Assembly (NCBI GenBank): GCA_023663225.1
Contig: JAMPHU010000018.1
Coordinates: forward strand, 1-53,092
Length of the DNA stretch: 53,092 nucleotides
From: Candidatus Gastranaerophilales bacterium
Lineage (GTDB): Bacteria; Bacillota; Clostridia; Lachnospirales; Lachnospiraceae
Direction of reading: 5' to 3'
The notes under the pieces were generated by a model. That model worked only from the letters and a program-made list of their open reading frames with translations, searched no databases and was not told the DNA's origin. The position numbers and the translations under genes were made by a program. Below are positions 13,060-50,316 of this stretch, in pieces (the first letter of the stretch is position 1; each line of letters starts with the position of its first letter).

Positions 13060-13373
13060 GTTACTTTTCACACCCATGCCAGTACATCAGTGCCAGCGAG
13101 GTGAACAGCCTTGGAACAGCCTTGTGTAGGTTGGAGCATTTTCTTACAGCGCGGTTGAGTTTCCCAGGGGGAAAAGCACATGGATGTGCTTTTCAGGTTT
13201 CATCGAGCATGGATGCCCGTTGAAACCGACCCGAAAGCTGCAATATTCCATAGCAAACGGTATGCCGTTTGCTATAATTCGCGCTGTTAGAAAACGCCCG
13301 ACCGAAACTCGGCTGTTCCAAGGCTGTTCACCTCGCTGGCACGTACCTTGCCGGCTGCTTTGTGAAAAGTAAC
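13060..13373 (+). repeat. Palindromic repeat element, copy 1 (MITE-like or structured repeat)
   Basis: A 314-bp element bounded by a perfect 13-bp inverted repeat (GTTACTTTTCACA at 13060-13072 and its complement at 13361-13373). The two halves are also complementary over longer stretches (GCCAGCGAGGTGAACAGCC against GGCTGTTCACCTCGCTGGC). Internal hairpins include AAAAGCACAT/ATGTGCTTTT and AGCAAACGG/CCGTTTGCT. The whole would fold as one long branched stem. ACCTAC occurs just outside the left end (13052-13057) and directly after the right end (13374-13379), a possible target duplication. It has no convincing coding sequence. A related inverted copy is at 19811-20099. Confidence 0.75.
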
Positions 13374-19810: not shown

Positions 19811-20099
19811 GTTACTTTTCACAGGGTAGCAAGCAAGGTACGTGCCCGCGAGGCAAAGAGCCTTAGAACAGCCGAGTTTCGGTCGGGTGTTTTCTAACAG
19901 CGCGGAATCAAAATGTTGCAACTTTCGGGGCGGTTTCAACGGGCATCCATGCCCGATGAAACCTGAAAAGCACATCCATGTGCTTTTCCCCCTGGGAGAC
20001 TTAACCGCGCTGTAAGAAAACGCTCCGACCTGCACAAGGCTGTTCTAAGGCTCATTGCCCCACGGGCACTGATGTACTGGCATGGGTGTAAAAAGTAAC
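19811..20099 (-). repeat. Palindromic repeat element, copy 2
   Basis: A 289-bp element related to the one at 13060-13373 but in the opposite orientation: its right end (CACTGATGTACTGGCATGGG) is the complement of the left end of copy 1. The 13-bp terminal repeats pair with one mismatch. Internal features are shared, including the AAAAGCACATCC/ATGTGCTTTT hairpin and the arms GGTTTCAACGGGCATCC and GATGCCCG. Copy 1 has an extra hairpin (AGCAAACGG) where copy 2 is shorter. No protein is supported. Confidence 0.72.
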
Positions 20100-26026: not shown

Positions 26027-26821
26027 ATGAAAAAGACAAAGCACATGAAAAAAATTCTTGTGCTGGGGCTGGTCGTGGCATATATGTGCATCGCCAGCGC
26101 CTGCGCAGGAGGTGACAAGAACAACACAAGCAGCGGCGACATGGCAGGAACCGGATCTCAATCCGGAACTGCCACTGGCACCGACAGCAACAGTACCGGA
26201 AACGGCACCGACAACAACAATAACAATGCCGATGACAATAGCGGCGTTGACGACGGCATGAACAATGGCTCGGATGACAATGGCCAAAACGGCAACGATG
26301 TCAACGGCACAGGCAACACAGGTGATGCCGGCAACAATGCCAATGGCAACAGTACCAATGGCAGCAACACCACCAACGGCAGCAACGCCAACGGCACTAA
26401 CAACACCAATGGCAGCAACGCCAACGGCACTAACAGCACCAATGACAACAACACTAACGGCACCAATGGCAACAACACCAACGGCACCAATGGCAGCAAC
26501 ACCAACGGCACTAACAGCACTAACAGCACCAATGGCAACAACACCAACGGTAACAATGCCAACAGCACTAGCAACACCAATGGCAACGGCAACAACAATA
26601 CCAACGGCACTAACAATGCCAATGGCACTAACAATGCCAATGGCAACAACGGCGCAGACGACGGCAACGTCTTAGAGAACGCCGGCAGGATGATCGACAA
26701 TATGTTTGACGATACCGCCGACGGCCTGTTTGATCTGACTGGCAATGGAAGCCGCGGCAGCGCCGACTATTACAACAATAGCGTGACCAGCGGCACGGAC
26801 AACAACAACCTTTTCCGGTAA
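26027..26821 (+). CDS. Asn/Gly/Thr-rich low-complexity lipoprotein
   Basis: A 264-residue lipoprotein (signal with lipobox SAC, then AGGDKNN). Residues about 40-215 are a low-complexity tract of Asn, Gly, Thr and Ser in imperfect short repeats (NGTNGNN, NGSNANGTN). It is encoded by AAC, GGC, ACC and AAT codons in near-repeats of 18 to 24 bp, which could expand or contract by slippage. A short C-terminal region (ENAGRMIDNMFDDTADGLFDLTG) looks folded or amphipathic. The ATG at 26027 has GGAGG 5 nt upstream; the open frame extends further upstream but without a signal peptide. The function is unknown; the tract may act as a cell-wall spacer. Confidence 0.75.
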   Translation: MKKTKHMKKILVLGLVVAYMCIASACAGGDKNNTSSGDMAGTGSQSGTATGTDSNSTGNGTDNNNNNADDNSGVDDGMNNGSDDNGQNGNDVNGTGNTGDAGNNANGNSTNGSNTTNGSNANGTNNTNGSNANGTNSTNDNNTNGTNGNNTNGTNGSNTNGTNSTNSTNGNNTNGNNANSTSNTNGNGNNNTNGTNNANGTNNANGNNGADDGNVLENAGRMIDNMFDDTADGLFDLTGNGSRGSADYYNNSVTSGTDNNNLFR

Positions 26822-28656: not shown

Positions 28657-28681
28657 GATAGTATACAAAACCCAATCCTCT

Positions 28682-28848
28682 GATAGCGCCCCATCTATCG
28701 CTAGATGACAGTCATGAAGCTGTTGACCCCATGCCCAAGGAAACGATCCGCAGTACACCGTCCCTTTCGGCGTATTCCCCTTTCCCACTCCCTCGACTGT
28801 GCCTGCCACATCAGGAGAGATACTCTTGAAATACGCAACCTCTATCTT
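28682..28848 (-). promoter_or_regulatory. Lysine riboswitch (L box)
   Basis: The minus strand from 28848 carries the conserved L-box segments in order: GATAGAGGTTGCG, AGAGTA, CAGTCGAGGGAGTGGGAAAGG, then CGCCGAAAGG, CCTTGGGCATGGGGTCA, ATGACTGTCAT and the closing GGGGCGCTATC that pairs with the first segment to form P1. The aptamer is 167 nt, the usual size. It precedes dapA and is followed by an intrinsic terminator. Lysine binding should favour termination. An apparent reading frame across it is not a gene. Confidence 0.92.
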
Positions 28849-28861
28849 TCTGATTACATGT

Positions 28862-32631: not shown

Positions 32632-35600
32632 ATTTCAACCCACGTCCCCACAGGGGGGACGACATGGGATGCTTTCCATCTGCGTCTAAGTACAGTCATT
32701 TCAACCCACGTCCCCACAGGGGGGACGACCGCTTTGCGCAGGGAGGATATCAAAGCACAGGTTATTTCAACCCACGTCCCCACAGGGGGGACGACATTTT
32801 TTCGTCTCATTTTCTACTTCTAACCGATTATTTCAACCCACGTCCCCACAGGGGGGACGACATAATATCCCCAGATTGATGTAAAACTTCATATATTTCA
32901 ACCCACGTCCCCACAGGGGGGACGACGCCGACAGGGCGACCGCTGACCTACCACACCGAGGATTTCAACCCACGTCCCCACAGGGGGGACGACTGCTTTT
33001 GCGGCAAGCTGATTGATCCTTTCTGGAATTTCAACCCACGTCCCCACAGGGGGGACGACCTCAATGGGTTCCGTATGATCCCATACCACAGTGAATTTCA
33101 ACCCACGTCCCCACAGGGGGGACGACAACATCATCATAAGTAACAAAGTCGTGGTTGGCTATTTCAACCCACGTCCCCACAGGGGGGACGACTCTATATG
33201 GATGTCAGAAATATCAGAGGGAGCGGATTTCAACCCACGTCCCCACAGGGGGGACGACTTGGGCAGTTGGCAAAAATGGCACTACAAGATGATTTCAACC
33301 CACGTCCCCACAGGGGGGACGACCACGGCGGTATTTGAGTTGAACAGTCGTGATAATATTTCAACCCACGTCCCCACAGGGGGGACGACAAACGCACATG
33401 TCCAATGTCCGGCAACTATTCAGATTTCAACCCACGTCCCCACAGGGGGGACGACAAATTTTCAATGATTCAAGAATGAATCGGAAAGATTTCAACCCAC
33501 GTCCCCACAGGGGGGACGACCCCATGGGCGTGGTGACAGTGCTGGAGACAGAGGAATTTCAACCCACGTCCCCACAGGGGGGACGACTGCAATGCACTTA
33601 ATATGTGGATTGAATCGGCTATTTCAACCCACGTCCCCACAGGGGGGACGACAACAGTTAGCGCAAATTACATTAAGCATACAGATATTTCAACCCACGT
33701 CCCCACAGGGGGGACGACGTCGAATATGGCGGCATTGATAAGTTCAACAATATTTCAACCCACGTCCCCACAGGGGGGACGACCTCAATGTTCCGTATGT
33801 CGCGGACAAGCTGGAGATTATTTCAACCCACGTCCCCACAGGGGGGACGACCCGCTTGCAACAATGCAAATATCGGTTACGATCAATTTCAACCCACGTC
33901 CCCACAGGGGGGACGACTTGTATCTGATGCAAGCCATTACGAAACAGACAATTTCAACCCACGTCCCCACAGGGGGGACGACCCCAGTTGCACAGATCAG
34001 TCAATGATTCAATATTATTTCAACCCACGTCCCCACAGGGGGGACGACAAAGAGTACGACAAATACAAATCGGGAGCAGGAAATTTCAACCCACGTCCCC
34101 ACAGGGGGGACGACAGGCAGGTGGGTAGTATTCGGCCGTTATTTAGAAATTTCAACCCACGTCCCCACAGGGGGGACGACTAGAGCAGACACTCATAGTA
34201 GCTTAAAGCTTCTTATTTCAACCCACGTCCCCACAGGGGGGACGACATCATCAATACTTTGGAGCACAGAGAGCTGATCAATTTCAACCCACGTCCCCAC
34301 AGGGGGGACGACACATGCCTACGCCGTATCCTGCAATGAGCAAGAGATTTCAACCCACGTCCCCACAGGGGGGACGACTTCCACGGTCATCTTGACACCC
34401 TCCGGTCACTCGAATTTCAACCCACGTCCCCACAGGGGGGACGACGAGTTGGAGACTACTAATGTCTCCGATCACGGCTAATTTCAACCCACGTCCCCAC
34501 AGGGGGGACGACAAGCAGAATACTTGCAGACGCATCATTTGCCGATATTTCAACCCACGTCCCCACAGGGGGGACGACTACTCGTGGTAAAGAATACGAT
34601 CAACGATACAGAATTTCAACCCACGTCCCCACAGGGGGGACGACTTCCACGATCATCTTGACACCCTCCGATTAATAAAATTTCAACCCACGTCCCCACA
34701 GGGGGGACGACTCCGGTGCGTCTTTCTCGTTCTGAAAAAGCAATTTTATTTCAACCCACGTCCCCACAGGGGGGACGACAAAGATCAGTATAATACATAT
34801 TATTGGTCTTAGTATTTCAACCCACGTCCCCACAGGGGGGACGACACTTTTTGGCGATAAAATTGTTTTGCGGGGGGTGTATTTCAACCCACGTCCCCAC
34901 AGGGGGGACGACCTTTTTGGCGATAAAATTGTTTTGCGGGGGGTGTATTTCAACCCACGTCCCCACAGGGGGGACGACGATGTATCTTTATTGGGTGATT
35001 ACGTATTTCCAATTTCAACCCACGTCCCCACAGGGGGGACGACGTATTTCCCGAACATTCTGTATGTTTTATCGATATTTCAACCCACGTCCCCACAGGG
35101 GGGACGACGCATGGGGCACTTTAGTGCCCCATGCAGTACATAAATTTCAACCCACGTCCCCACAGGGGGGACGACATCAATCACACGATCAAAAACATCA
35201 ATGGTGGTAATTTCAACCCACGTCCCCACAGGGGGGACGACAGCGCCATCGTAACTTTTTTTATCCTGTCGTTTTATTTCAACCCACGTCCCCACAGGGG
35301 GGACGACCCCGCTCCCTCAAATACCTTATCAGGAGATTGAGATTTCAACCCACGTCCCCACAGGGGGGACGACCCCCGCTCCCTCAAATACCTTATCAGG
35401 AGATTGAGATTTCAACCCACGTCCCCACAGGGGGGACGACTTTGGTGCACGGTACTGTTGTTTATTTTCCTTGTGTATTTCAACCCACGTCCCCACAGGG
35501 GGGACGACTCTTTTAAGGGGGTGATGTTATTCTTCTCACTCAATTTCAACCCACGTCCCCACAGGGGGGACGACCTGAGTTTCAGGTTGCATAAATCTCT

Positions 35601-38600
35601 GCGTTTTTATATTTCAACCCACGTCCCCACAGGGGGGACGACTTGCTGATAATCTGGAGTTTGTATCACCTCTCTGATTTCAACCCACGTCCCCACAGGG
35701 GGGACGACAACATAATCACAAAACCCTATAAACTGGGTAGCAATTTCAACCCACGTCCCCACAGGGGGGACGACATACTCGTGGTGAAGAATACGATCGA
35801 CAATACAGATTTCAACCCACGTCCCCACAGGGGGGACGACAACAAACCACACATCAAACCTCCTCAAGTATCAAAATTTCAACCCACGTCCCCACAGGGG
35901 GGACGACTGGGGGAGGTAATCGAATTACTATACTCATGGTATTTCAACCCACGTCCCCACAGGGGGGACGACATCATACTCATGGTGGAGAATACGGTTA
36001 GCAATGCAAATTTCAACCCACGTCCCCACAGGGGGGACGACTGCTTTTGAGGATGTTTGTATTTTTTGCATTAAAATTTCAACCCACGTCCCCACAGGGG
36101 GGACGACCGCATCTTCGTAAATGCGCTGGACAATACGACGGAATTTCAACCCACGTCCCCACAGGGGGGACGACGGAAAAAGGTACATATCAAAATCACC
36201 ATACGGAATTTCAACCCACGTCCCCACAGGGGGGACGACCCCGCTCCCTCAAATACCTTATCAGGAGATTGAGATTTCAACCCACGTCCCCACAGGGGGG
36301 ACGACGATCGCCATAACACGCTGTTTTGATCTATGAGTTATTTCAACCCACGTCCCCACAGGGGGGACGACCCGATAGAAAGACCACCGAATATCTCATA
36401 ACCGAATTTCAACCCACGTCCCCACAGGGGGGACGACTCTGTTCTTCGCCGTATCGTTCAGCGCATTTATATTTCAACCCACGTCCCCACAGGGGGGACG
36501 ACAGCCTGTCCTTCGACAATCTGGAAGGGGTATGTGAGATTTCAACCCACGTCCCCACAGGGGGGACGACATAATCGAGGAAGTGGCGTTCCAGAAGGTC
36601 GCTATATTTCAACCCACGTCCCCACAGGGGGGACGACAGGATCCGGATATATTCATCTGGCGACGTTTAAGATTTCAACCCACGTCCCCACAGGGGGGAC
36701 GACGGTCAAGGCAGTTCCGCTTCAGGGCGGCGAAACATACATTTCAACCCACGTCCCCACAGGGGGGACGACAATGACGGCGCAGGAAATTGAAAACCGG
36801 AATTTATTTCAACCCACGTCCCCACAGGGGGGACGACGGTTCGATGACGAACAGGAAGCGCGGGACTTTATCATTTCAACCCACGTCCCCACAGGGGGGA
36901 CGACCTAAAGTGCTGAATGTAACGGTTGACTGGCTTCTGATTTCAACCCACGTCCCCACAGGGGGGACGACTCGTCTATCTGTATAAAACAAATGACGAA
37001 TTCCGTATTTCAACCCACGTCCCCACAGGGGGGACGACGGCAAAAGCGTTTCTTTTCACAAAGGATCAAGTCGAATTTCAACCCACGTCCCCACAGGGGG
37101 GACGACCGTTCGCCCCGTCGGACGCAACGGTCGTTGACGCAATTTCAACCCACGTCCCCACAGGGGGGACGACCGTTGATTCAGGACGTCAACTACAACA
37201 TGGCGAAATTTCAACCCACGTCCCCACAGGGGGGACGACTTTCTGTTATGGAATTTCATTGAGATGTACGGAATTTCAACCCACGTCCCCACAGGGGGGA
37301 CGACGGCAAACGACCTGCAGCCGCAGTATGACAGGATATTTCAACCCACGTCCCCACAGGGGGGACGACAATGTTCGCATTGAGCTGACACAGGGCGCAA
37401 ACATATTTCAACCCACGTCCCCACAGGGGGGACGACGACCGGGACACCTACAAAGGGCAGCTTGACACGGCATTTCAACCCACGTCCCCACAGGGGGGAC
37501 GACAATCTACATCAACGGCAAAAAGACACCGAAAGAGATTTCAACCCACGTCCCCACAGGGGGGACGACAAAAATGTGCTATAATACGTATGTGGGAATA
37601 GGATTTCAACCCACGTCCCCACAGGGGGGACGACGGAAAACGAGAGCGGGAACGTCTGGGAAATGATATTTCAACCCACGTCCCCACAGGGGGGACGACG
37701 CCTAATTCTCAATGCTTTCTTGGCAAAGAAGGATTTCAACCCACGTCCCCACAGGGGGGACGACTGTACAGGGTGGCACAGAGGTAACGGTATCCGGCAT
37801 TTCAACCCACGTCCCCACAGGGGGGACGACACCTTATGCAGAGTTTTTACAACCAGCCACAGCAATTTCAACCCACGTCCCCACAGGGGGGACGACCGTG
37901 TGCATATATAGAGCAACCGCAAGTAGACGTATTTCAACCCACGTCCCCACAGGGGGGACGACGAGGCGATGTATTTAATGGGACAGAGAGTCAGAGTATT
38001 TCAACCCACGTCCCCACAGGGGGGACGACCTGGTATGATCGCAATGATGGGTTACTCCACCCATTTCAACCCACGTCCCCACAGGGGGGACGACGATATA
38101 ATACAAGAAATGATGAAGATATTTGATATTTCAACCCACGTCCCCACAGGGGGGACGACGAAAGCGTGGTGGATATTAAGGATATGGAGGTATTATTTCA
38201 ACCCACGTCCCCACAGGGGGGACGACCTGATACCGAGGTTTGAGATTGGAGGGAGATAATATTTCAACCCACGTCCCCACAGGGGGGACGACGGGGAAAA
38301 ACTGGAAGCATTGGCGGCAGAAATGGAATTTCAACCCACGTCCCCACAGGGGGGACGACGATGCGATTTATGAGAGGATCCTCGATCTGGCGATATTTCA
38401 ACCCACGTCCCCACAGGGGGGACGACATCGAGCGGTTGTCCGAGCATAAGATTAAGCTGGAATTTCAACCCACGTCCCCACAGGGGGGACGACGGCAGAA
38501 GTAGCATCTGTCAGAACAACATCAAAATTTCAACCCACGTCCCCACAGGGGGGACGACGGGATGTTTTGGCAGGAACACCAGTAACAGGTGTATTTCAAC

Positions 38601-41600
38601 CCACGTCCCCACAGGGGGGACGACTTTCATCTGGCGTATACGGACACTATCCGGCATATTTCAACCCACGTCCCCACAGGGGGGACGACTCCGTTATGGG
38701 CGGCAAAATGGGAAGAATGGGCGATTTCAACCCACGTCCCCACAGGGGGGACGACAAATCCCGAAAATAAGCCGCAAGTGAATCATAAATTTCAACCCAC
38801 GTCCCCACAGGGGGGACGACTGCACCGATACCCACGAAGCAGATGAAACAGCCATTTCAACCCACGTCCCCACAGGGGGGACGACTGGCCATCCAGTCCC
38901 AAAACATATGTACCATGTGGATTTCAACCCACGTCCCCACAGGGGGGACGACGCAAACGCACAAGCGAAACACGGTTCTGTGACTGATTTCAACCCACGT
39001 CCCCACAGGGGGGACGACATTCAGCGGCATCAGCTATACAATCCCACTCTTTATTTCAACCCACGTCCCCACAGGGGGGACGACGGTACAACTCCAGATA
39101 CATTTCCGCCGGAAGTTTTATTTCAACCCACGTCCCCACAGGGGGGACGACCCCGCGGGTGCGAATGTGTACAAAACTTCAGATGGATTTCAACCCACGT
39201 CCCCACAGGGGGGACGACGGATAGTTCACACTGTTTCTCAACGCCCCCTGCTATTTCAACCCACGTCCCCACAGGGGGGACGACCATGCGATAGGATAGG
39301 CGGTCATAGTCCTTTTGCAATTTCAACCCACGTCCCCACAGGGGGGACGACCGACCGAAGTAAACAGTGTGATCTCCATCATTGAATTTCAACCCACGTC
39401 CCCACAGGGGGGACGACGATGTTTTAACTCCTGACTGTACGGAGTTAAACATTTCAACCCACGTCCCCACAGGGGGGACGACGCCAAAAAGACAATGAGC
39501 GAAATACCTATCACTATTTCAACCCACGTCCCCACAGGGGGGACGACTCCATGATTTCTTTGTCGATATCAATATCAACAGATTTCAACCCACGTCCCCA
39601 CAGGGGGGACGACGGAAAGAAGATGTGCCGATTGCAGACCGCATTAAATTTCAACCCACGTCCCCACAGGGGGGACGACTCGGAATCCAGACATCCGTAC
39701 TCATAGCCACGTTATTTCAACCCACGTCCCCACAGGGGGGACGACGGCGCATGGATTTATTCCAATGTCCACCAGCCGATTTCAACCCACGTCCCCACAG
39801 GGGGGACGACTGGGAAAATGAAGAAAGTAGAACATTACATCTGTATTTCAACCCACGTCCCCACAGGGGGGACGACTTCCTTTGACACAGATTTCTTTTT
39901 TGCAGATAGGAATTTCAACCCACGTCCCCACAGGGGGGACGACAGTTGCAAGGCGTAACCCAAACGGAAATGTGATATTTCAACCCACGTCCCCACAGGG
40001 GGGACGACTCAGCCACAGCCTTTAATTTCTTTACAGTCGGATTATTTCAACCCACGTCCCCACAGGGGGGACGACCGCGGGTGCGAATGTGTACAAAACT
40101 TCAGATGGATTTCAACCCACGTCCCCACAGGGGGGACGACAAGTTTTTTGGAATGTCAACGGATGGATGATACAAATTTCAACCCACGTCCCCACAGGGG
40201 GGACGACGACAGAGTATGAAGCATATTTAATTCTGCAAACAAATTTCAACCCACGTCCCCACAGGGGGGACGACAGAGCAGATGCCGGAAGAAGGTGGAC
40301 TCTATGGAATTTCAACCCACGTCCCCACAGGGGGGACGACGGAGCAATGCAGGGGCAAGGAGATATAAAAAGGAATTTCAACCCACGTCCCCACAGGGGG
40401 GACGACGCGATGGCTATACGCAAAAATACAAGGGTTAGAAGATTTCAACCCACGTCCCCACAGGGGGGACGACAGGGGAGGATTGCGGACAGGCTATTGA
40501 CTGGACGATTTCAACCCACGTCCCCACAGGGGGGACGACTTTACCATGATAACCATAGGAATTGACTTCGGCGATTTCAACCCACGTCCCCACAGGGGGG
40601 ACGACCACAGTGGCCGGAGACGCCGCCGGAGGTTAAAGATTTCAACCCACGTCCCCACAGGGGGGACGACTGCCATATGCACCCAATATCCTAAATCCTT
40701 GCGATTTCAACCCACGTCCCCACAGGGGGGACGACGATGTGACCTTTGACATGCAGACAGGCATCCTGACATTTCAACCCACGTCCCCACAGGGGGGACG
40801 ACGTGGAAAATGGAGGTGTTTCGATATGTCCGAAAAAATTTCAACCCACGTCCCCACAGGGGGGACGAACGGCTCAAAGGAAGAGATTAACACCGGGATA
40901 TCATTTCAACCCACGTCCCCACAGGGGGGACGAAAAATAGCTATCTCACAGGTGGGGCGACATTTCAATTTCAACCCACGTCCCCACAGGGGGGACGAAT
41001 CGTGAAATGCTTCTTTGCAAATTCCGCTAACAATTTCAACCCACGTCCCCACAGGGGGGACGAGCCGCTTTTCCGATACATCAAAACACCAGTGCCATTT
41101 CAACCCACGTCCCCACAGGGGGGACGTGGCCATCCAGTCCCAAAACATATGTACCATGTGGATTTCAACCCACGTCCCCACAGGGGGGACGAATTTACGT
41201 CATTTACCGCCGTCTCGTCGCTGGGAATTTCAACCCACGTCCCCACAGGGGGGACGAACGACATAGCGGTACTGATTATCGGGGCGATAACATTTCAACC
41301 CACGTCCCCACAGGGGGGACGACTTACTTCCTCACGTTTCCCCTTTGTCAATGTCAATTTCAACCCACGTCCCCACAGGGGGGACGAAAGAGTCATAAAA
41401 ACAAATTTTAGGAGGAAATGGATTTCAACCCACGTCCCCACAGGGGGGACGAGAAAGCGTCATTGATGATACGAGTTCTGTTAGCGATTTCAACCCACGT
41501 CCCCACAGGGGGGACGATTAAATGGCTTATATACTATGTTGGTTATCTTTTCATTTCAACCCACGTCCCCACAGGGGGGACGACCGAGCGCACAAATCGT

Positions 41601-42366
41601 CACAAAGGCGCGAAGATATTTCAACCCACGTCCCCACAGGGGGGACGAGGCTTCGTGCCGGATCTATGCCGGAGGAAATGCAATTTCAACCCACGTCCCC
41701 ACAGGGGGGACGACCGAGCGCACAAATCGTCACAAAGGAGCGAAGATATTTCAACCCACGTCCCCACAGGGGGGACGACTTAAATGGATTCAAAAAGCTG
41801 ATAGTGCTTGATATTTCAACCCACGTCCCCACAGGGGGGACGACGAGAATGATCCGCAAGAGGGATTGTTTGAGGAGATTTCAACCCACGTCCCCACAGG
41901 GGGGACGACGGCGGCACAGCGGCGCATGGTGGAGATTTTTGAATTTCAACCCACGTCCCCACAGGGGGGACGACTTGCAAGTCATACCGACAAAATGCAA
42001 GGCTTTTATTTCAACCCACGTCCCCACAGGGGGGACGATGATGTTGACCCCGCTGTAAAAAGGAGGTTCACGATTTCAACCCACGTCCCCACAGGGGGGA
42101 CGACTTGCAAGTCATACCGACAAAATGCAAGGCTTTTATTTCAACCCACGTCCCCACAGGGGGGACGACTTGTGGCGTTGGCAATCTTTTGAGTGTGTTC
42201 CCCATTTCAACCCACGTCCCCACAGGGGGGACGAAGTAATCTGCAAGATTAGGAATGCTTTGACCTGTATTTCAACCCACGTCCCCACAGGGGGGACGAC
42301 ACGGCCATGTCATCATTCACAAGCCCGTCTTTCGATTTCAACCCACGTCCCCACAGGGGGGACGAA
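32632..42366 (-). CRISPR. Type I-C CRISPR array, 148 repeats and 147 spacers
   Basis: Counted by hand, the array has 148 copies of a 32-nt repeat. In the transcribed (minus) direction the repeat begins GTCGTCCCCCCTGTGGGGAC and ends GTGGGTTGAAAT, with a 7-bp stem (CGTCCCC/GGGGACG), a 5-nt loop and an 11-nt handle TGGGTTGAAAT. The transcribed direction and the leader at the right end are set by cas2 and by the repeat 3' motif. Repeats 1-124 from the left (old end) are identical; from about 40838 to the leader the first base varies. Spacers are mostly 33-37 nt. Several occur more than once. Open frames across the array are artefacts of the repeat. Confidence 0.99.
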
Positions 42367-42536
42367 GCAAAACTAACTAATAATTTACCTTTTTATATGC
42401 AGTCTCTTTACAATATTCACAAAAAAATAAATATTATATATATTCATAAGCATCTGCATATTAAATTTCTATTAATTTAGTACCAGAAACCTACGCGAAT
42501 AAATACCATTTTTAATGGGCGCTTGGCTCTCGCGCA
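42367..42536 (-). promoter_or_regulatory. CRISPR leader
   Basis: 170 bp, very AT-rich, between the cas2 stop and the first repeat. Read on the minus strand it starts TGCGCGAGAGCCAAGCGCCC right after cas2, and ends TTAGTTAGTTTTGC before the leader-proximal repeat. It should hold the pre-crRNA promoter (TATAAA near 42395 is a possible -10) and the Cas1-Cas2 integration signals. The leader-proximal repeat starts with T where most repeats have G. Confidence 0.75.
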
Positions 42537-42831: not shown

Positions 42832-43860
42832 TTACCTCTTAAAAAATGGCGGATATGCATCTAAATCTCCCCGCAGATACCTAGCAAGCAGCAATGCCTG
42901 AACATAGGGCAGTAGTCCCACTGGCACCTTTTCCTTTAAAAAAGGATGCTGTATCACCTCCTGCTTTGTCTCCTGCCATCTCTGAATAACGACCTTTCTG
43001 CCGGAATCTGTCATAATGACCGCATGATCTTCCATTTTCAGAAAATCAGATGGCGCAACTTGCCGTTTGTTTATAAGCGTCAGTACAAATCTATCCGCAA
43101 TGGGACTCCTCAATTCTTCCATCAAATCCAACGCCAGCGACTTTCTGCCTGGCCTGTCACGATGCATAAAACCTACATATGGATCCAAACCGACAGAGTA
43201 TGCCGCTCCAGCACATTCATTCGCTAAGAGGGAATACGCAAATGACAAAAGCGCGTTCACATTGTCAAGCGGCGGACGCTTATTTCTTCCATCAAATCGA
43301 AATTGCTCTTTATTTTGCAAGATCAATTCGTCAAATACATGAAAGTAAACTGTCGCCGCCTCCCCTTCATATCCTCTTAATTCGTCCAGACCCTGACAAT
43401 TCCTGATATTCTCAACGGCATTTTGCAGCAATTCAGAAGCATGACGCATTTTTTCAACATTGACTCTCATTTCATGATCTCGTATAGCGCGATTGACTAC
43501 ATAGCGCTCATTATAAACTTTTCCAAGAATCATATTTCGTGCAATGTCCAAGCATTTCTGCGCATCGTCCGAAAACCGGTACTGCGTTTTACGCAAAATA
43601 ACATTTCCGTTTTCCTGCCCGACAAACCTTCCGCAGTATTGATTCCCCAAAAAGAAACTTATCGACACATTATTTTCCGTACACTTTTTCATCAGTGCCG
43701 GACTGACGCCGGTATAATTGAATGTCACCACTGCTTCAAGATTATGAATGGGAAGGCGCATTGCGATTTCCTCATTTTTCCTGACCACAATATTTTCCCC
43801 ATCCAGACTCAGGTAAGCATCAGGCGAAGTCACATAGAGCGTATTAAGAAGCTTCTTCAT
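42832..43860 (-). CDS. cas1: CRISPR-associated integrase Cas1 (type I-C)
   Basis: A 342-residue integrase. The N-terminal beta domain (LLNTLYVTSPDAYLSLDGENIVV) and the helical catalytic domain are intact. The metal site is formed by Glu in GYEGEAATVYF near residue 165, His in GFMHRDRPGRKSLALDLMEE near residue 232, and Asp/Glu in the same segment. Size is normal. Its start overlaps cas4 by 4 nt (ATGA). With Cas2 and Cas4 it makes the complete adaptation module, consistent with the very long, apparently recently growing array. Confidence 0.97.
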   Translation of the reverse strand: MKKLLNTLYVTSPDAYLSLDGENIVVRKNEEIAMRLPIHNLEAVVTFNYTGVSPALMKKCTENNVSISFFLGNQYCGRFVGQENGNVILRKTQYRFSDDAQKCLDIARNMILGKVYNERYVVNRAIRDHEMRVNVEKMRHASELLQNAVENIRNCQGLDELRGYEGEAATVYFHVFDELILQNKEQFRFDGRNKRPPLDNVNALLSFAYSLLANECAGAAYSVGLDPYVGFMHRDRPGRKSLALDLMEELRSPIADRFVLTLINKRQVAPSDFLKMEDHAVIMTDSGRKVVIQRWQETKQEVIQHPFLKEKVPVGLLPYVQALLLARYLRGDLDAYPPFFKR

Positions 43861-44522
43861 CTCGTTTCCTCCCCAAGCACGGCTTCTATATAGTTTTTAA
43901 CACCGATACGACTGCCAAGATCCGGTACGCATATATTTTGCAGTGAACACTGTTTGCACTTTGCTCCGGCTTTTACCTTCGGAGTGTAGCTGCTTTCATA
44001 ATACCGATGCATCTCTTTCAGGGAATCCTTTACCTTCTCCCGAAGAGCTGCTGTTAATTCCACTTCCTTTCTGTGCTTCGTCTCTCCATAATACAAATAA
44101 CCCAGTTCAATTTCCGTTTGCAACATTTCTTCAAGACACATTGCCTGCGCCGTCAATTGCAGTTCATCCGCGTCGTGGCTTTTAGGTGCCCCGCGCTTAT
44201 ATTCTACAGGCACTACCCTGTAAAGGCCCTCACGGCCGCTTAATGGAACTCCCTGAGGGTCCGCATGAAACTCAACCAAATCACATTCTCCGCTGACCCC
44301 CAGGCTTCTGGAAAAGACCTTCATTGCACGAACAGACAATATCCCTCCCCTCTTTTCTTTATAGAATGGATTATGTGCATTTTCATGCATACTTCTTCCT
44401 TCAAAGGTTCTGACATTTTCCTCCCACTGCTGTTCGATATGAATCAATGCCCACTGTCTCCTGCAAAATGCAAAATGCTGAATACCGGACAACAGCAAAA
44501 AATCCTCTTCTTCGTATTCCAT
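43857..44522 (-). CDS. cas4: CRISPR-associated exonuclease Cas4
   Basis: A 221-residue RecB-like nuclease that trims prespacers and selects the PAM-proximal end. Four cysteines for a 4Fe-4S cluster are visible: C near residue 18 (FAFCRRQWAL), and KCKQCSLQNIC near residue 190. The nuclease core includes GECDLVEFH (motif II, about residue 78) and VPVEYKRG (motif III, EYK). It overlaps cas1 by 4 nt and starts 5 nt after cas7. Confidence 0.95.
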   Translation of the reverse strand: MEYEEEDFLLLSGIQHFAFCRRQWALIHIEQQWEENVRTFEGRSMHENAHNPFYKEKRGGILSVRAMKVFSRSLGVSGECDLVEFHADPQGVPLSGREGLYRVVPVEYKRGAPKSHDADELQLTAQAMCLEEMLQTEIELGYLYYGETKHRKEVELTAALREKVKDSLKEMHRYYESSYTPKVKAGAKCKQCSLQNICVPDLGSRIGVKNYIEAVLGEETR

Positions 44523-44527
44523 ATCGA

Positions 44528-45415
44528 TTATTCCTTACAGATGCAGGTTACACCGTCCGGCAGATTTGTATCGATTTCCACTGTGTAGTCACCGAATTCC
44601 CTGACAATCTCCACCCCAGCCTTTCTCTCTACTTTTACACCGTCAAACAGCTTGTGAGCCGGTGCACATCCAAGTTCACTGTCATGTCTGAAAATAATCA
44701 GTTTTCGGACAGCCATCTTACCTCTCGCCGCAGAATGATCATTCTCAAACATATTTAAAATTGCCTGCCACAAAAGTTCAAGATCCTCCTCTGAAAATCC
44801 TGTGACCTTCCTTGCAAGATTTGCTGAAATATAACCCTCTGCGCGATACAATGCATATGGTACAATAAATTTTCTTCCCATTTCCGTACCCTTATTCTCC
44901 GCATCACTTTCCGTAGTAATAGCCACTCTGGTAATCGTGATCTCCTGCGGCAATACAGGATCTACTGACCTGGCAAAACCAATCTGAACCGGCCCCCTCA
45001 CCTGCCCGCAATTCAGCTTATCCTTTACAAATGTTGTCATTACCGCGCCAAAAGTCCTGATGTCATAAAAATTTTCACACATAAAATCCCTTATCTTTCG
45101 ATCCAATTCGGGATCCTCTTTTTTCTTTGCCTTGATATCGCCTGTGGCCACACCCACATAATCATATGCTTCCTTATCGCTGCGGTTTAAGGGAACATTT
45201 TCCTTGATATAAATGCGATATCCTTTTTCATCTTCCTTTACTGTTTCCACATAATTACGAATTTTTCTCTTTAAACAGACATCTGTTACAAGGCCATACC
45301 CGCTCTCCGGATCAACTCGCGGCATATTTCCTGCATCAGGATCGCCGTTGGGATTTCCATTCTCCACGTCAAATAAAATCACAAAATCATATCTGTTTTT
45401 TATTACTTCACTCAT
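44528..45415 (-). CDS. cas7: Cascade backbone protein Cas7 (Csd2/Cas7c)
   Basis: A 295-residue RAMP protein that coats the crRNA in several copies. Family segments include NRYDFVILFDVENGNPNGDPD at the N terminus, DVCLKRKIRNYVE near residue 45, DIRTFGAVMTTF near residue 117 and RGPVQIGFARSVDPV near residue 135. Length is normal for type I-C. It starts 2 nt after cas8c ends. Regularly spaced thumb loops of this protein are what flip out every sixth base of the guide, relevant to the guide-like element near 48.0 kb. Confidence 0.96.
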   Translation of the reverse strand: MSEVIKNRYDFVILFDVENGNPNGDPDAGNMPRVDPESGYGLVTDVCLKRKIRNYVETVKEDEKGYRIYIKENVPLNRSDKEAYDYVGVATGDIKAKKKEDPELDRKIRDFMCENFYDIRTFGAVMTTFVKDKLNCGQVRGPVQIGFARSVDPVLPQEITITRVAITTESDAENKGTEMGRKFIVPYALYRAEGYISANLARKVTGFSEEDLELLWQAILNMFENDHSAARGKMAVRKLIIFRHDSELGCAPAHKLFDGVKVERKAGVEIVREFGDYTVEIDTNLPDGVTCICKE

Positions 45416-45417
45416 TT

Positions 45418-45780
45418 TTACTTCTCCTCCATTTTCTGATAACGTTTCTGCGTTTGATGATAATAACCCAAATGAAAGGAACCCTGCTGTGGCATTGTCA
45501 TCCGCACCGGATACTCTTCTCCCAGCTTGTCCACGATTTCCTGAACCTGTTTCTGAAAAGAAATCCGGCTTCCTTCGGTTCTTAATTTTCTCAAATGCTT
45601 CTGTGCCAGGTTTATAAGCATCGGGAAAGTGTTTGCAGGGGCAGATGCAGCAGAATTAAAATATTTATCTTTTATCGTTGAATTAATCCCTGGATTTGCT
45701 TCCTGCTGAATATGCTCCAGCACTGCAAACAATCTTCCCAAGTTGTAAGGCACATTCCCGCTTTCTTCATTTAATGCCAT
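45418..45780 (-). CDS. Cas11c small subunit from an internal start in cas8c
   Basis: An in-frame ATG inside cas8c at 45780 is preceded by a perfect AGGAGGT (plus coordinates 45788-45794) with 7 nt spacing. It gives a 120-residue protein starting MALNEESGNVPYNLGRLFAV. In type I-C systems the small subunit Cas11c is known to be made from an internal start within cas8c and to be about this size; it stabilises the belly of Cascade. The AGGAGGT strength and the length both fit. It shares frame and stop with cas8c. Confidence 0.75.
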   Translation of the reverse strand: MALNEESGNVPYNLGRLFAVLEHIQQEANPGINSTIKDKYFNSAASAPANTFPMLINLAQKHLRKLRTEGSRISFQKQVQEIVDKLGEEYPVRMTMPQQGSFHLGYYHQTQKRYQKMEEK

Positions 45781-47175
45781 CTGTAATACCTCCTCTGGAC
45801 ACTGTATGTTTCTGTTTTTCAAATAATAAGCCTTGATAATTGCCGCTCTGCCTCGGGTCACCTCGTGTTCCGCCCGAATGCGCAGCATCACTCCGTTCAA
45901 TAAAGATGCAGGGTATGCACCTCCTGTCAATATAGCCTTCATCATATCTGCGGCCATCTGTGGCGAGGGCGTTTTATCCCTTGCATTTTGATTAACTGTT
46001 TCCTGCAGCAGTTCCCAACATGGAAGTCTTTTATATCTGTCATAAACCGGCTTTACGATTTCCAGTCTGTCATAATGTCTCCCCACATTGCGCAGCATAT
46101 TTCCAAAGGAATCCTGCCAGAAAAACCGGACAGACAAACGTGCCGCATTCGGCGCCACTCCCAGAATATAAAAATGCCGGTTCTCATCCAGTCTCAGGTT
46201 CTCCAGTTCAATCGGTTTCCCTTCAAGGGCCACATTCAAAATGGCGCTCAGATTTTCATCCGTTACCTTTCCCTCATCTTCCACTCCGAACATTGCGGCA
46301 ATACCCACATCCTGATATTCTTTTTCACCTCCGTCCGCCCAACAGACAATCGTGGTATCGCCAATCCATTTACTATGTTCTCTGTCACTTAACAGACTGT
46401 TCAGGGCTGCACCATAGGCCGCCGCCGCATATTCTCCGACGGAAGCGTTTTCACCCTGTTCCTTTCCATAAGAGCAAAAGGCCTGTGCATTAAAGGATAC
46501 CAGAGAGGTGCCCATTGCCTGTGCCCCATATACTCCTTTGATAACAGGATGCAATGTTGCAATATGTGCCGGTTTCCCGATAATCATACAGAATCCGTTC
46601 GGTTCCGCTCCCCGGTTATCATAATACTGCTGCCAGCAGTTTCTGACGGCGGTATCCTCCGTTACCGGTTTGCCCTCATAGCAAAAAAGAATGTTGGCAC
46701 CGGCCATTAATTCCTTCCAGGCCTCCTTTATACATGGATGCTCTGATGCTCCTTCCGGATCCCATTTCTGCAAAAAGAACAGAACTGCTTTTGCCGCATC
46801 TGATTGTACCTCCTGCAGCAATTCTCTGTGCAATTCACAGAACGCATTAAAACACTGCCCGGTTCTTTCCGGGTTACCTTTTTCATCCACTCCCAGAATA
46901 TAGGTTGCATTATCACACAGGAAATTAGGACTGATATTTACTGAGCGCTTCACGGACTGCGGCACTATCATCTCCCGAGGCTCATCGACAACTTTTTTAC
47001 CTTTTTCCTTCTGAACCTTCAGCGAAACCAAATCAATGATATTCCCTTCCTTATCCAGATTCATTCCAAAGGAAACTCTTGCAGTTCCCCAGCCGGGTCT
47101 GGGGATTTCCCCTTTTTCCAACAGGTCTTCATAATGTTTTACCAAAGCCTGCAATATCACATAACCACCTCGCAA
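45418..47175 (-). CDS. cas8c: Cascade large subunit Cas8c (Csd1)
   Basis: A 585-residue protein that recognises the PAM (usually TTC in type I-C) and recruits Cas3. The N terminus reads MRGGYVILQALVKHYEDLLEKGEIPRPGW, and the rest has the Csd1 order: PNFLCDNATYILG, an internal SVRFFWQDSFGNML near residue 350 and the C-terminal Cas11-like helical region from about residue 465. Its start overlaps cas5 by 19 nt. Length is normal and I see no disruption. An internal translation start yields Cas11c. Confidence 0.95.
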   Translation of the reverse strand: MRGGYVILQALVKHYEDLLEKGEIPRPGWGTARVSFGMNLDKEGNIIDLVSLKVQKEKGKKVVDEPREMIVPQSVKRSVNISPNFLCDNATYILGVDEKGNPERTGQCFNAFCELHRELLQEVQSDAAKAVLFFLQKWDPEGASEHPCIKEAWKELMAGANILFCYEGKPVTEDTAVRNCWQQYYDNRGAEPNGFCMIIGKPAHIATLHPVIKGVYGAQAMGTSLVSFNAQAFCSYGKEQGENASVGEYAAAAYGAALNSLLSDREHSKWIGDTTIVCWADGGEKEYQDVGIAAMFGVEDEGKVTDENLSAILNVALEGKPIELENLRLDENRHFYILGVAPNAARLSVRFFWQDSFGNMLRNVGRHYDRLEIVKPVYDRYKRLPCWELLQETVNQNARDKTPSPQMAADMMKAILTGGAYPASLLNGVMLRIRAEHEVTRGRAAIIKAYYLKNRNIQCPEEVLQMALNEESGNVPYNLGRLFAVLEHIQQEANPGINSTIKDKYFNSAASAPANTFPMLINLAQKHLRKLRTEGSRISFQKQVQEIVDKLGEEYPVRMTMPQQGSFHLGYYHQTQKRYQKMEEK

Positions 47176-47849
47176 TCCCTCAGATCCAGCATCCCATCCT
47201 TCATCTGTGCCCTGAAAAATCTGGGACAGATTCCTGCCGGATTATCGTAATCCATACTGTGAAGCATATATCCGAAATCCTTCGTCAACGGAACAACAGG
47301 TATCTCGCCGCCTTCCCATTCTCGAAAATGTGCCGGAAATTCCCTGCACCCAAAATACGGCTGATGATAACACTGCCCTTTCCGCAAACGCCGTTTCATA
47401 ATATCCTGGAATTTTCCCGGATTATCTCCGGGACTGGCATCCGGAGTCATATCAAAATGAGCTTCAATCACATAATGTACATCCTGCAATATCAGGGAAG
47501 AGCGCTGATTCCTCTCAACCGCCGTATTCAGATACAGACTGCCTGTTCCTGTTGTCATAACAGTTCGCACAGTACTGGCCGAAATTTTTGATTTCACTTC
47601 ATTTCGTTTGACACTTGTCATTTTAATGCCTGTAGGGTTAATTTCCGCCTCCTTCTGTCTTTCCAACTGGATCGGCGCCATCAGATAAATCTTATCCGCC
47701 ACCCAGTTTAATCCAGGATGCCAATAGATCGCTTCCAAGAGTCCCCTTGCGGCGGAAGGTGTAATAATATCATAGGACACTCTTTCTGTTTTCATCTCCG
47801 GTCTGGAAAAGCATGCATTTTTCCCCCATACTTCCACCATAACTGACAT
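47157..47849 (-). CDS. cas5: Cas5c/Cas5d, crRNA-processing Cascade subunit
   Basis: A 230-residue RAMP protein. In type I-C it replaces Cas6: it cuts the pre-crRNA at the base of the repeat stem, leaving the 11-nt 5' handle, and stays bound to it. The N terminus SVMVEVWGKNACFSRPEMKTERVSY and SAARGLLEAIYWHPG are characteristic. Further family segments are RNQRSSLILQDVHYVIEAHF and YFGCREFPAHF. AAGGAGGGG lies upstream of the ATG at 47849. It is the first gene of the cas5-cas8c-cas7-cas4-cas1-cas2 transcript, so the guide-like target upstream would affect all of them. Confidence 0.95.
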   Translation of the reverse strand: MSVMVEVWGKNACFSRPEMKTERVSYDIITPSAARGLLEAIYWHPGLNWVADKIYLMAPIQLERQKEAEINPTGIKMTSVKRNEVKSKISASTVRTVMTTGTGSLYLNTAVERNQRSSLILQDVHYVIEAHFDMTPDASPGDNPGKFQDIMKRRLRKGQCYHQPYFGCREFPAHFREWEGGEIPVVPLTKDFGYMLHSMDYDNPAGICPRFFRAQMKDGMLDLRDCEVVM

Positions 47850-47867
47850 TTCATTCCCCTCCTTTCA

Positions 47868-47904
47868 TTCAATAGTTTAAATTGTAAATTTTTATTCTTA
47901 ATAA
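47868..47904 (+). promoter_or_regulatory. Putative Cascade-binding operator in the cas5 leader (PAM plus pseudo-protospacer)
   Basis: TTC (47868-47870) is followed by AATAG.TTAAA.TGTAA from 47871, where dots are positions that differ from the guide-like RNA at 47976-48058. Matches are at 1-5, 7-11 and 13-17, mismatches at 6, 12 and 18, with no useful pairing beyond. The site lies between the predicted -10 of the cas5 promoter and the cas5 ribosome binding site, so a bound Cascade would block initiation or early elongation. Partial pairing would not be expected to trigger Cas3 cleavage. Confidence 0.75.
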
Positions 47905-47932
47905 TTGTATTATAATCTTATACTACTGTCAA
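47904..47932 (-). promoter_or_regulatory. Promoter of the cas5-cas8c-cas7-cas4-cas1-cas2 operon
   Basis: TTGACA (47932-47927), 17 nt, TACAAT (47909-47904) on the minus strand. Transcription would start near 47897, about 48 nt upstream of the cas5 ATG. It lies back to back with the predicted promoter of the guide-like RNA. Confidence 0.7.
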
Positions 47933-47940
47933 TACTAATA

Positions 47941-47969
47941 TTGCATTTTCTTTCACAAAACGTTACACT
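47941..47969 (+). promoter_or_regulatory. Putative promoter of the CreR-like RNA
   Basis: TTGCAT (47941-47946), 17 nt, TACACT (47964-47969) on the plus strand. The predicted start, 7 nt after the -10, is about 47976, exactly where the pseudo-repeat begins (GTCATC). The boxes are weak, which would suit a regulator expressed at a low level. Confidence 0.5.
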
Positions 47970-47975
47970 ATTTAT

Positions 47976-48058
47976 GTCATCAGATTGATGTGGATTGAAA
48001 TAATAGGTTAAACTGTAATACTCATTCAGGCGACAGACAATATCTGTCGCCTGAACAT
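47976..48058 (+). ncRNA. CreR-like guide RNA: degenerate CRISPR repeat, pseudo-spacer and terminator hairpin
   Basis: The 26-nt pseudo-repeat at 47976-48001 begins GTCATC (true repeat GTCGTC), keeps a shorter hairpin (CATCA-GAT-TGATG) and ends with the 11-nt handle TGGATTGAAAT (true handle TGGGTTGAAAT, one difference). The handle starts directly after the hairpin, as Cas5d cleavage requires. The pseudo-spacer begins at 48002 (AATAGGTTAAACTGTAA). It matches the cas5 promoter-proximal site at 47871 at all positions except 6, 12 and 18 over the first 18, next to a TTC PAM. A 13-bp hairpin (TTCAGGCGACAGA/TCTGTCGCCTGAA, 48025-48055) closes the element in place of a second repeat. CreR RNAs with this logic are known for other CRISPR types and repress cas transcription through Cascade. 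Transcription here is not shown. Confidence 0.78.
48025..48055 (+). terminator. Terminator-like hairpin of the CreR-like RNA
   Basis: A perfect 13-bp stem with loop CAATA, followed by CATTTCG. The T-tract is poor, so termination may be partial. It could alternatively stabilise the RNA 3' end. It lies between the pseudo-spacer and the convergent 3' end of cas3. Confidence 0.55.
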
Positions 48059-48102
48059 TTCGCCCCGCTGTTATACTATATACCGTTATTTCCATCTTCC
48101 GA

Positions 48103-50316
48103 TCATATCAATATTCCATATCCGGTTTCTACATCCATCTTAAGTCCGGTATCCCTGCTATATTGATTGCTATCACGCAGCACAAAAACATCCTTGTTGA
48201 TTTCTTCCAAACAGCCTGCTTCCCAAAGCATCTCAAAATGATTTTCATAAACATCGACACCATACTGCCCCAGTTTTCTGTATGTATTTCTGTCTGCAGC
48301 ACCTGTCTCTGCCTGTTTCAGCATGTCATATGCTCCTTCCAGTGGTATGTAAACTGTTTTCATCGCATTCTCAATCAAATGGAACTTTTGGCTGACAGTC
48401 GCAAAGGGGAAACAACCGCCTCCTATGCCTTTTCTCCACGCTGCCATAATCTCCTTTTGATCCAGATTTTCTTTTCCCAAAAGTTCTCTGAAATATTGAA
48501 AATAAAAAGAAATTGCTTCAGGCTCATCGATTGCTTCATATCTGCGCCACGCTTCCCTTAGCGCTGCAATGCTTTGAGCCGCATACCTGCTCTCCTCACC
48601 TTCCAGACGAAAAGAATAGACTATCTGCTCCTCCCGCGGCCGTTTTCCTTCCCGATTGCATCTGCCCGCAGCCTGAATCAGAGAATCAAGTCCCGCTTCC
48701 TGCCTGTATACCTGTGGGAAATCCAGATCAACTCCCGCTTCCAGCAGCGATGTTGCTATCACCCTGCACTTTTCTCCCGCATGCAGCCGTTCTCTGATTT
48801 CTGCAAATTTAAGTTTCCTGTCAGCAGGGCACAATAAGGTTGTCAGACAGAAAACCCCGTCCTCTTCCAGCGCCTGATATAGTTCCTGTGCTGTTTTCCT
48901 CTTGTTGACAATACAAAGCACCTGCTCCCGGCTGCACAAACGTTCTTCCAATTCTTCCGCAGATAATGAATTAATATTTTTAATTATATTCCTCTTGAAA
49001 AAGGCAAACAATTCTTCGGTGCCACTGCAAATCTCCCGAATACGACATTCCGGTATATAGGTCTGAAACCTTTCCTCCAGAGCAGGCTGTGTCGCTGTAC
49101 ACAGTACAACCGTTGATCTGTAATTCTCTGCCAGTTGTGCCATTGCGGCCACACATGGTTCCAGATAAGGCACCGGCAATGTCTGCGCCTCGTCAAAAAT
49201 AATTACGCTGTTTGCAATATTATGAAGTTTTCTGCACTTCCCGCTTTTGTTGGCATACAACGACTCAAAAAACTGTACCGCCGTAGTTACAATAATCGGA
49301 GCGTCCCAGTTTTCCGCAGCCAATGCTTTCCTGTAATTATTCTCTTCTCCTTCATCCTCGCTTACATCATACAAAACGCCGGAATGATGTTCCAGAACAT
49401 TTTCCTGTCCGAAAATGTGTTCAAAAACCGCCGCATTTTGATCGATAACTGATGTATAAGGTATTACATAAATAATTCTTTTCAGACTGTGTGTACAGAT
49501 ATGGTTCAGTGCAAATCCCATAGATGCTGTAGTCTTTCCGCCTCCCGTAGGCACAGTCAAGGTATACAGTCCTCTGGAATACTCTTTTCCCTTCTTCATA
49601 CACTCCCTCAGTATCCTGTTGCGTTGCCTGCACAGTTCTGTATTTGTCCCTGTTCCTGACCCTTCCGTTTCCAGCCAGCTGCTGACATATTCTTCAAAGC
49701 AATGCAGTAAAGTCTCCGGAGAATCATAGCCGCCTCTTTCTGCCTGAATTCCGTTCATAAAAGCTTCTGTATCCAGATAATCCGCATCCACCAGACAGGA
49801 AAAGATCATGCGGATAAAAAAGGACATATTAAAGCTGCTCTTATTACAAAATGCCGGAAATGCCACTGGGCAAATGTCGGAAATTTCCTGTTGCAAATCC
49901 ACCTTCCACCTGCTGTAATCCTCCAGTGCCCTTTTATGCCGCCCGAAGTAAGTTCCATCCTCCGGGTTTGCAGTTGTAATATTTCCTCCATCCAACAACC
50001 CGCTGTGATGTCCCGCCACTGCCATGCCCAATGCAATATATCTTTTGTCCAGCTTCTGTATTTCCACTGCTCCTGCAGTAGAGTGATCCACGCGATTGGA
50101 AGACAGAGGATTCCTTATTCGTTTTTGAAATGCTTCCGAATATTTTCCTATATCATGCAGTAGTCCGCACAAATACGCCGCATTTTCGCAGCCAAATTCG
50201 GAGGCAAACTCTTTTGCTCTTCTTGCCGTACCAAGCAGATGAGCCTTCACCTCCTGAATATTTCCCTCAACATCTATATGCGCAATCAGAATATCCTCAC
50301 TTTTCTCACTTTTCAT
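48103..50316 (-). CDS. cas3: CRISPR-associated nuclease/helicase Cas3 (HD fused, type I-C)
   Basis: A 737-residue effector. The N-terminal HD nuclease has H in KAHLLGTA near residue 25, LLHDIGKYSEAF (HD, about residue 52), HSTAG (about 78) and HHSGLLDGG (about 103). The helicase follows with motif I LTVPTGGGKTTAS near residue 250, motif II IIFDEAQTLP (DEAQ in place of DEAH) near 375, motif III LCTATQPA near 400 and motif VI IQAAGRCNREGKR near 550. It degrades DNA marked by Cascade. It has its own probable promoter and is separated from cas5 by 250 bp that hold the guide-like element. Confidence 0.96.
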   Translation of the reverse strand: MKSEKSEDILIAHIDVEGNIQEVKAHLLGTARRAKEFASEFGCENAAYLCGLLHDIGKYSEAFQKRIRNPLSSNRVDHSTAGAVEIQKLDKRYIALGMAVAGHHSGLLDGGNITTANPEDGTYFGRHKRALEDYSRWKVDLQQEISDICPVAFPAFCNKSSFNMSFFIRMIFSCLVDADYLDTEAFMNGIQAERGGYDSPETLLHCFEEYVSSWLETEGSGTGTNTELCRQRNRILRECMKKGKEYSRGLYTLTVPTGGGKTTASMGFALNHICTHSLKRIIYVIPYTSVIDQNAAVFEHIFGQENVLEHHSGVLYDVSEDEGEENNYRKALAAENWDAPIIVTTAVQFFESLYANKSGKCRKLHNIANSVIIFDEAQTLPVPYLEPCVAAMAQLAENYRSTVVLCTATQPALEERFQTYIPECRIREICSGTEELFAFFKRNIIKNINSLSAEELEERLCSREQVLCIVNKRKTAQELYQALEEDGVFCLTTLLCPADRKLKFAEIRERLHAGEKCRVIATSLLEAGVDLDFPQVYRQEAGLDSLIQAAGRCNREGKRPREEQIVYSFRLEGEESRYAAQSIAALREAWRRYEAIDEPEAISFYFQYFRELLGKENLDQKEIMAAWRKGIGGGCFPFATVSQKFHLIENAMKTVYIPLEGAYDMLKQAETGAADRNTYRKLGQYGVDVYENHFEMLWEAGCLEEINKDVFVLRDSNQYSRDTGLKMDVETGYGILI

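Follow-up and report, generated by a model that had tools for sequence, protein, structure and literature searches.

The window (the whole 53,092-nt stretch of DNA analysed here) belongs to a 3.29 Mb draft genome that is 94.5% complete. The closest named relative found was a metagenome-assembled Acetatifactor muris, with a Cas5 identity of 97% (locus L026). The window carries a type I-C cas locus in which cas3, cas5c, cas8c, cas7c, cas4 and cas1c all lie on the minus strand, and each exceeded its curated family cut-off in a profile scan:

48103..50316, minus strand: cas3 (TIGR01587 and TIGR01596)
47157..47849, minus strand: cas5c, the first gene past the target described below (TIGR01876, 154.5 bits against a cut-off of 85)
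45418..47175, minus strand: cas8c (TIGR01863)
44528..45415, minus strand: cas7c (TIGR02589)
43857..44522, minus strand: cas4 (TIGR00372)
42832..43860, minus strand: cas1c (TIGR03640)
32757..42367, minus strand: CRISPR array with repeat GTCGTCCCCCCTGTGGGGACGTGGGTTGAAAT in the crRNA sense (read directly; outer limits approximate)

Array spacers are duplicated near the cas end (41580-42140), where one pair is nearly identical and another identical. Elsewhere in the window, Rfam matches consist of two TwoAYGGAY RNAs and a lysine riboswitch, at 13144-13268 (plus), 19874-20037 (minus) and 28676-28852 (minus), and positions 26330-26651 hold low-complexity tandem repeats whose units are 9-90 bases long.

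The gap between cas3 and cas5 spans 253 nt. On its plus strand, opposite the cas genes, lies an element made up of a short hairpin, a handle, a 23-nt guide and a 13-bp hairpin, and the guide matches a site near cas5. The relevant features are:

47868..47870, plus strand: target PAM, TTC (read directly)
47871..47887, plus strand: protospacer, matching at 15/15 readable positions and 15/17 overall (guide-target comparison)
47904..47932, minus strand: predicted cas5 promoter, TTGACA-17-TACAAT, start near 47897 (11/12 consensus matches; prediction only)
47941..47969, plus strand: possible element promoter, TTGCAT-17-TACACT, start near 47976 (-10 box 27 nt before the handle, a spacing also found in relatives)
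47976..48001, plus strand: truncated, degenerate type I-C repeat, GTCATCAGATTGATG-TGGATTGAAAT (read directly)
47991..48001, plus strand: 11-nt handle, TGGATTGAAAT (counterpart in the array repeat, TGGGTTGAAAT)
48002..48024, plus strand: guide, 23 nt up to the hairpin, of which the first 17 pair with the target
48025..48055, plus strand: 3′ hairpin, 13 bp with a loop of 5 and no T-run (z of -5.6 against shuffles)

Direct reading confirmed that a pseudo-repeat on the plus strand has its hairpin right before the 11-nt handle, as first noted. The stem, CATC/GATG (or CATCA/TGATG), abuts the handle, which differs from that of the array by 1 mismatch. It is the sole handle within 1 mismatch on the plus strand of the window; the minus strand has 148 such handle-like sites, chiefly in the array. 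The handle joined to the start of the guide occurs once in its own genome, and at 2 mismatches five array handles and two unrelated sites appear. The element had been described as lacking a second repeat, and indeed no second handle was found in the cas3-cas5 gap, where the guide runs instead into a hairpin unrelated in sequence. It had also been said to end in a terminator hairpin, which held in part: the hairpin is present but has no T-run, and a scan of 47700-48300 found no terminators. At gathering thresholds, no Rfam family was found at the element. Its possible promoter has a weak -35, read by eye, and is absent from the promoter-prediction list.

Aligned from 48002 and 47871, respectively, guide and target match at positions 1-5, 7-11 and 13-17 (the readable positions) and differ at 6, 12 and 18; this agrees exactly with the match first noted, as does the adjoining TTC, which is the reported type I-C PAM in PMC11640852. 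When TTC followed by AATAGNTTAAANTGTAA was searched in the draft genome with up to 3 mismatches, there was one perfect site, and three other sites all had 3 mismatches, one of them being the guide itself. Relative to the predicted cas5 start, pairing covers 10-26 nt downstream, ahead of the cas5 ribosome-binding site. The placement of the target at the predicted cas5 promoter or leader holds.

For comparison, cas5 loci were drawn from 101 genomes of the genus, from genome contigs (61 loci), from a class draw of 391 genomes and from a family draw of 250 genomes. With further stretches included, this gave 195 loci and 189 usable regions, or 180 after near-duplicates were removed. In an unbiased search of the 180 regions, we compared every pair of positions and kept TTC-preceded pairs that matched at a minimum of 14/15 readable positions, with no handle required. 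Among the 39 pairs recovered, 26 have a GAAA handle in front, and all 26 lie on the strand opposite the cas genes; of the remaining 13, most are low-complexity stretches, inverted repeats or reverse readings.

A set of 30 elements was defined by two conditions, a TTC target matching at 11/15 or better and no more than 2 mismatches in the handle, which excluded 4 of 34 handle-bearing loci, with scores of 7-8. Ten elements scored 15, sixteen scored 14 and one scored 13; the weakest members are L008 and L158 at 12/15 and L052 at 11/15. In L052, whose element lies in the cas3-cas5 gap, guide and target fit far better with one base skipped near position 10-11. When any PAM was allowed, the best site of all 30 selected elements carried TTC. 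Gaps between cas3 and cas5 that contain an element measure 117-498 nt (29 measured, with L007 probably mis-measured), and in loci without one the gap is below 100 nt in 128/147 measured.

The match between guide and target had been judged very unlikely by chance, and dinucleotide shuffles upheld this. Each of the 180 regions was shuffled 20 times, and no handle ever came with a TTC target at 13/15 or above, compared with 27 regions observed; at 11/15 or above, 0.35 of 180 were expected and 31 observed. Swapping guides among the 30 elements (870 combinations) gave a mode of 8/15, and scores of at least 13 were reached in 9, 8 of which were between near relatives. Because TTC had helped to choose the set of 30, we also ran a blind test without it, in which sites were chosen by handle alone, with any PAM and no mask, and identity was taken over 17 nt. 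This yielded 57 handle-like sites, 38 opposite the cas genes and 19 on the cas strand. The best site reached 14/17 or more in 29/57, and TTC was present in 28 of these 29, the exception being L194 (GTC). On the shuffles, the swapped guides and the blind handle test, we rejected a chance match. The blind test also returned a 31st candidate, L137, which lies upstream of cas5 on the cas5 strand (14/17, TTC).

The identity profile of the blind sites is informative in its own right. Among the 42 that scored 12/17 or higher, 36-41 were identical at positions 1-5, 7-11 and 13-15, with only 20 at position 6 and 14 at position 12. Identity was found in 32 at position 16, 26 at 17, 12 at 18 and 7-17 at positions 19-24. 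Positions 6 and 12 are thus exempt even when no mask is imposed, and pairing stops around 16-17. The exemption agrees with the flipping of every sixth base described for class 1 complexes (PMC11127173). All three mismatches in the window had been attributed to such flipping; for positions 6 and 12 the attribution stands, whereas position 18 is no evidence of flipping, because pairing fades from 17 onward across the whole set. Pairing in the elements is shorter than the match of at least 27 bp that was needed for type I-C function in Xanthomonas (PMC11640852).

Comparison of cas3-cas5 gaps in relatives had been proposed as a check. There, seed and PAM matching is conserved, so the lack of conservation named beforehand as refuting the idea was not observed, and pseudo-spacer and target covary, in line with the original prediction. 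L029 and L035 share an identical 3′ hairpin, and guide and target have both changed at readable positions 3, 7, 10 and 11, with each pair still matching. Coordinated changes also occur between L029 and L031, L031 and L035, L050 and L061, and L051 and L061, and at one position between L050 and L051. The guide of L002, the window's nearest relative, differs just at exempt position 6; in L003, guide and target both differ at position 10 without matching there. These observations bear on a reading in which the element is a non-functional relic of a CRISPR repeat, or a solitary repeat that, in the manner of an anti-CRISPR, merely sequesters Cas proteins. It is a single degenerate repeat, and solitary type I-C repeats are described as acting as anti-CRISPR RNAs (PMC10651486), but TTC and a placement within the cas locus that recurs in many genomes speak against either origin, and the covariation of guide and target led us to reject both. 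We consider this very improbable, and the least probable of the readings weighed here.

Relatives share a usual layout of a -10 box, a truncated repeat, a guide of ~23 nt and a hairpin, without a second repeat. Element promoters were judged on the -10 alone, as an earlier combined score overweighted the -35. The best -10, searched from -60 to -16, lies 25-35 nt before the handle in 22/30 elements, most commonly at -27 or -28, so the expected start falls on the initial bases of the truncated repeat. In 8/30 it falls outside -35 to -25, and in four it is at -48. A -10 at the right place in 22/30 might hint that an RNA is made and processed. For 11 element loci with an array available, inspection by eye showed the full 11-nt handle to be common to element and array in 7, and to differ at one or two positions in 4; the stems differ in all of these loci except L052, again by eye. 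The hairpin comes after a median of 23 nt of guide, with a range of 14-31. Against shuffles, the 3′ hairpin has a median z of -5.0 and is weakest in L003 (-1.3) and in L071 and L162 (-2.0). In many cases the cas3 stop is close by (median distance 12 nt, with a wide spread), and the hairpin may double as the end of the cas3 message. T after the hairpin stem is raised on the element strand, at 0.47 against 0.36 overall.

Where the targets lie helps to separate the remaining explanations. The protospacer is at most 50 nt from the best predicted cas5 start in 28/30 elements. In the window, guide and predicted cas5 leader are complementary, as would be expected of a plain antisense sRNA that pairs with the cas5 mRNA near its ribosome-binding site and blocks translation without Cascade. 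Such an RNA does not fit with a conserved TTC beyond the paired stretch or with exemption of positions 6 and 12. Moreover, targets are on the other strand in L008, L178 and L184, and also in L077, L233 and L234, and the protospacer precedes the predicted start in L037, L039, L046, L050, L051 and L061. We rejected an antisense sRNA on the strength of these other-strand and upstream targets in several relatives, and view it as very improbable.

The same guide logic operates in CreTA (PMC9458426), and the element could conceivably be the CreA of a CRISPR-regulated toxin-antitoxin pair, with Cascade repressing a toxin (RNA or gene) within the gap and not the cas genes. Relatives L037, L064 and L113 have room for this between target and cas5. 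In many others, however, the protospacer begins 14-30 nt before cas5, and in the window ~48 nt separate the predicted start from cas5 (a distance that depends on that prediction), with no space for a separate gene. A toxin-antitoxin pair was rejected for the window on the latter ground, and we give it, like antisense pairing, only a very slim chance. Repression of the cas genes by a Cascade-bound guide is the reading we retain.

The leaders of three relatives merit description. In L037, the stretch from ~180 nt before cas5 up to cas5 has a promoter-like TTGAAA-17-TATACT between target and cas5, followed by a very small frame (ATGCCACCATAG) and a hairpin rich in GC; by analogy with CreTA, this is possibly a separate small RNA. 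In L113 and L064 the target is 250-320 nt before cas5, and the long leader could hold another product. The L113 target overlaps a TTGACA-17-TACAAT promoter.

Elements also occur upstream of cas3. Among 45 loci with 3.5 kb or more of upstream sequence, cas3 was recognisable in 43, and six have an element upstream of it: L055, L067 and L075 at 13/15, and L069, L072 and L077 at 11/15. L083 also reaches 11/15 upstream of cas3 but resembles array repeats. In the class draw, 60/61 places were examined, the window's own being left out. We recognised cas3 in 56 and an element in 13 (9 in the gap, 4 upstream of cas3), which are not independent, since L233 and L234 come from one genus. The other 43/56 cas3 loci have no element, and 6/56 had less than 250 nt searchable upstream of cas3. 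Among the elements upstream of cas3, T-rich DNA comes after a hairpin, or arms, in L055, L067, L069, L072, L075, L233, L234 and L263, and the elements of L250 and L261 have no strong hairpin. L263, which belongs to the class draw, has an element at both places: the one in the cas3-cas5 gap scores 15/15, and the one upstream of cas3 scores 14/15 and has a terminator-like end. In L045, a stem, a perfect handle and a strong hairpin stand in that order ~220 nt upstream of cas3; the best TTC site within the stretch scanned scores just 7/15.

Beyond these draws, 29 new loci from a phylum draw, which are part of the matches in 79 genomes, were searched over 1.5 kb upstream of cas5 only. L202 scored 14/15 and L209 13/15, and L200 scored 12/15 with a poor handle. 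No accepted element was found in 10 plasmid-borne I-C loci, 8 of them outside Bacillota, the scan of L292 and L295 being limited to the stretch before cas5; L295 has a borderline 11/15 site on the cas strand with no stem in front. By these sequence searches, the element is frequent yet optional in Clostridia, and its absence elsewhere is based on a small sample.

Taken together, the conserved seed and PAM, the covariation of guide and target, the exemption of positions 6 and 12 and a target at the cas5 promoter or leader support the original interpretation. The element is very probably a stand-alone crRNA-like gene, a type I-C CreR, that guides Cascade to repress its own cas operon. From these features we infer transcription, processing, Cascade binding, repression and sensing, as follows. 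An RNA would start near 47976 and consist of the degenerate repeat, a guide of ~23 nt and the 3′ hairpin. Cas5c, which in the type I-C structure from D. vulgaris grips the 5′ handle of the crRNA (PMC7684278), would hold the 11-nt handle of the degenerate repeat, and the RNA would load into a Cascade of Cas5c, Cas8c and Cas7. The loaded complex would bind the cas5 leader at 47871, next to TTC, over ~15-17 nt, with every sixth base unread. Such pairing would suffice to bind and to block cas5-cas8c-cas7-cas4-cas1 and what follows, and would be too short for cutting by Cas3. A shortage of Cascade, its occupation by ordinary crRNAs or its block by an anti-CRISPR would lower repression, and the operon would be refilled.

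Clostridial type I-C systems might further have a compact CreR design of their own, a proposal that we regard as possible though not quite probable. In it, transcription would begin with the initial bases of the truncated repeat, processing by Cas5c would release the handle, and the 3′ end would be set by a hairpin only ~17-25 nt further on. The resulting Cascade, short and with a reduced number of Cas7 subunits, would bind and repress without licensing Cas3, and separate guides could serve separate promoters of one locus, as in L263 with its elements in the gap and upstream of cas3.

If correct, the interpretation would extend RNA-guided autorepression to type I-C and provide tens of natural guide-target pairs that can be read from sequence. 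These pairs would serve as an evolutionary readout of how type I-C Cascade reads its targets (TTC, ~15-16 paired bases, no demand at positions 6 and 12), and of the amount of pairing with its own chromosome that a cell can bear. The interpretation also suggests that the enlarged cas3-cas5 gaps of Clostridia are regulatory, and would offer a testable route by which a type I-C system could answer anti-CRISPRs.

A full-text search, with most subscription papers outside its coverage, found no paper combining CreR, I-C, Cascade and CRISPR, and we do not present the type I-C elements as new to the literature. On CRISPR-derived regulatory RNA elements, Shmakov et al. 2023 (NAR) reportedly found standalone repeats conserved near cas genes, mainly of type I, with partial matches to cas promoters. 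Among systems with solitary repeats, the Racr units described in PMC10651486 are viral, lie away from cas genes and inhibit Cas assembly, and type I-C is represented among them. The window element resembles them in being a solitary repeat, which in Racr often lies just downstream of a predicted promoter (PMC10651486), but it differs in its location between cas3 and cas5 of a host cas locus and in its matched guide. CreA of CreTA has one or two ectopic repeats through which Cascade is directed to a promoter and represses it (PMC9458426), and like the window element it has a degenerate repeat; CreTA represses a toxin RNA, whereas the predicted promoter in the window leads straight to cas5.

The closest likeness is to CreR (Liu et al. 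2023, Cell Host Microbe), described as a crRNA-like RNA of the cas locus with a partial cas-promoter match and proposed to direct autorepression by Cascade (PMC13131331, PMC12737573, PMC12948488). For autorepression through partial promoter complementarity, the excerpted text of PMC13131331 names I-B, I-E and V-A, and I-C is not among the types named there. By its sequence, the window element is likewise a putative crRNA-like RNA with a repeat-derived handle, and it combines partial complementarity to a predicted cas promoter region with a PAM (15/15 readable positions and TTC, kept in relatives). It differs in belonging to type I-C and in having one repeat and a 3′ hairpin end, in place of a mini-CRISPR layout with a second repeat; CreR is termed a mini-CRISPR RNA in PMC12948488. 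The missing repeat is not decisive, because the related CreA has one or two (PMC9458426). Judged by these features, all of which are present except the second repeat, the element probably works like CreR.
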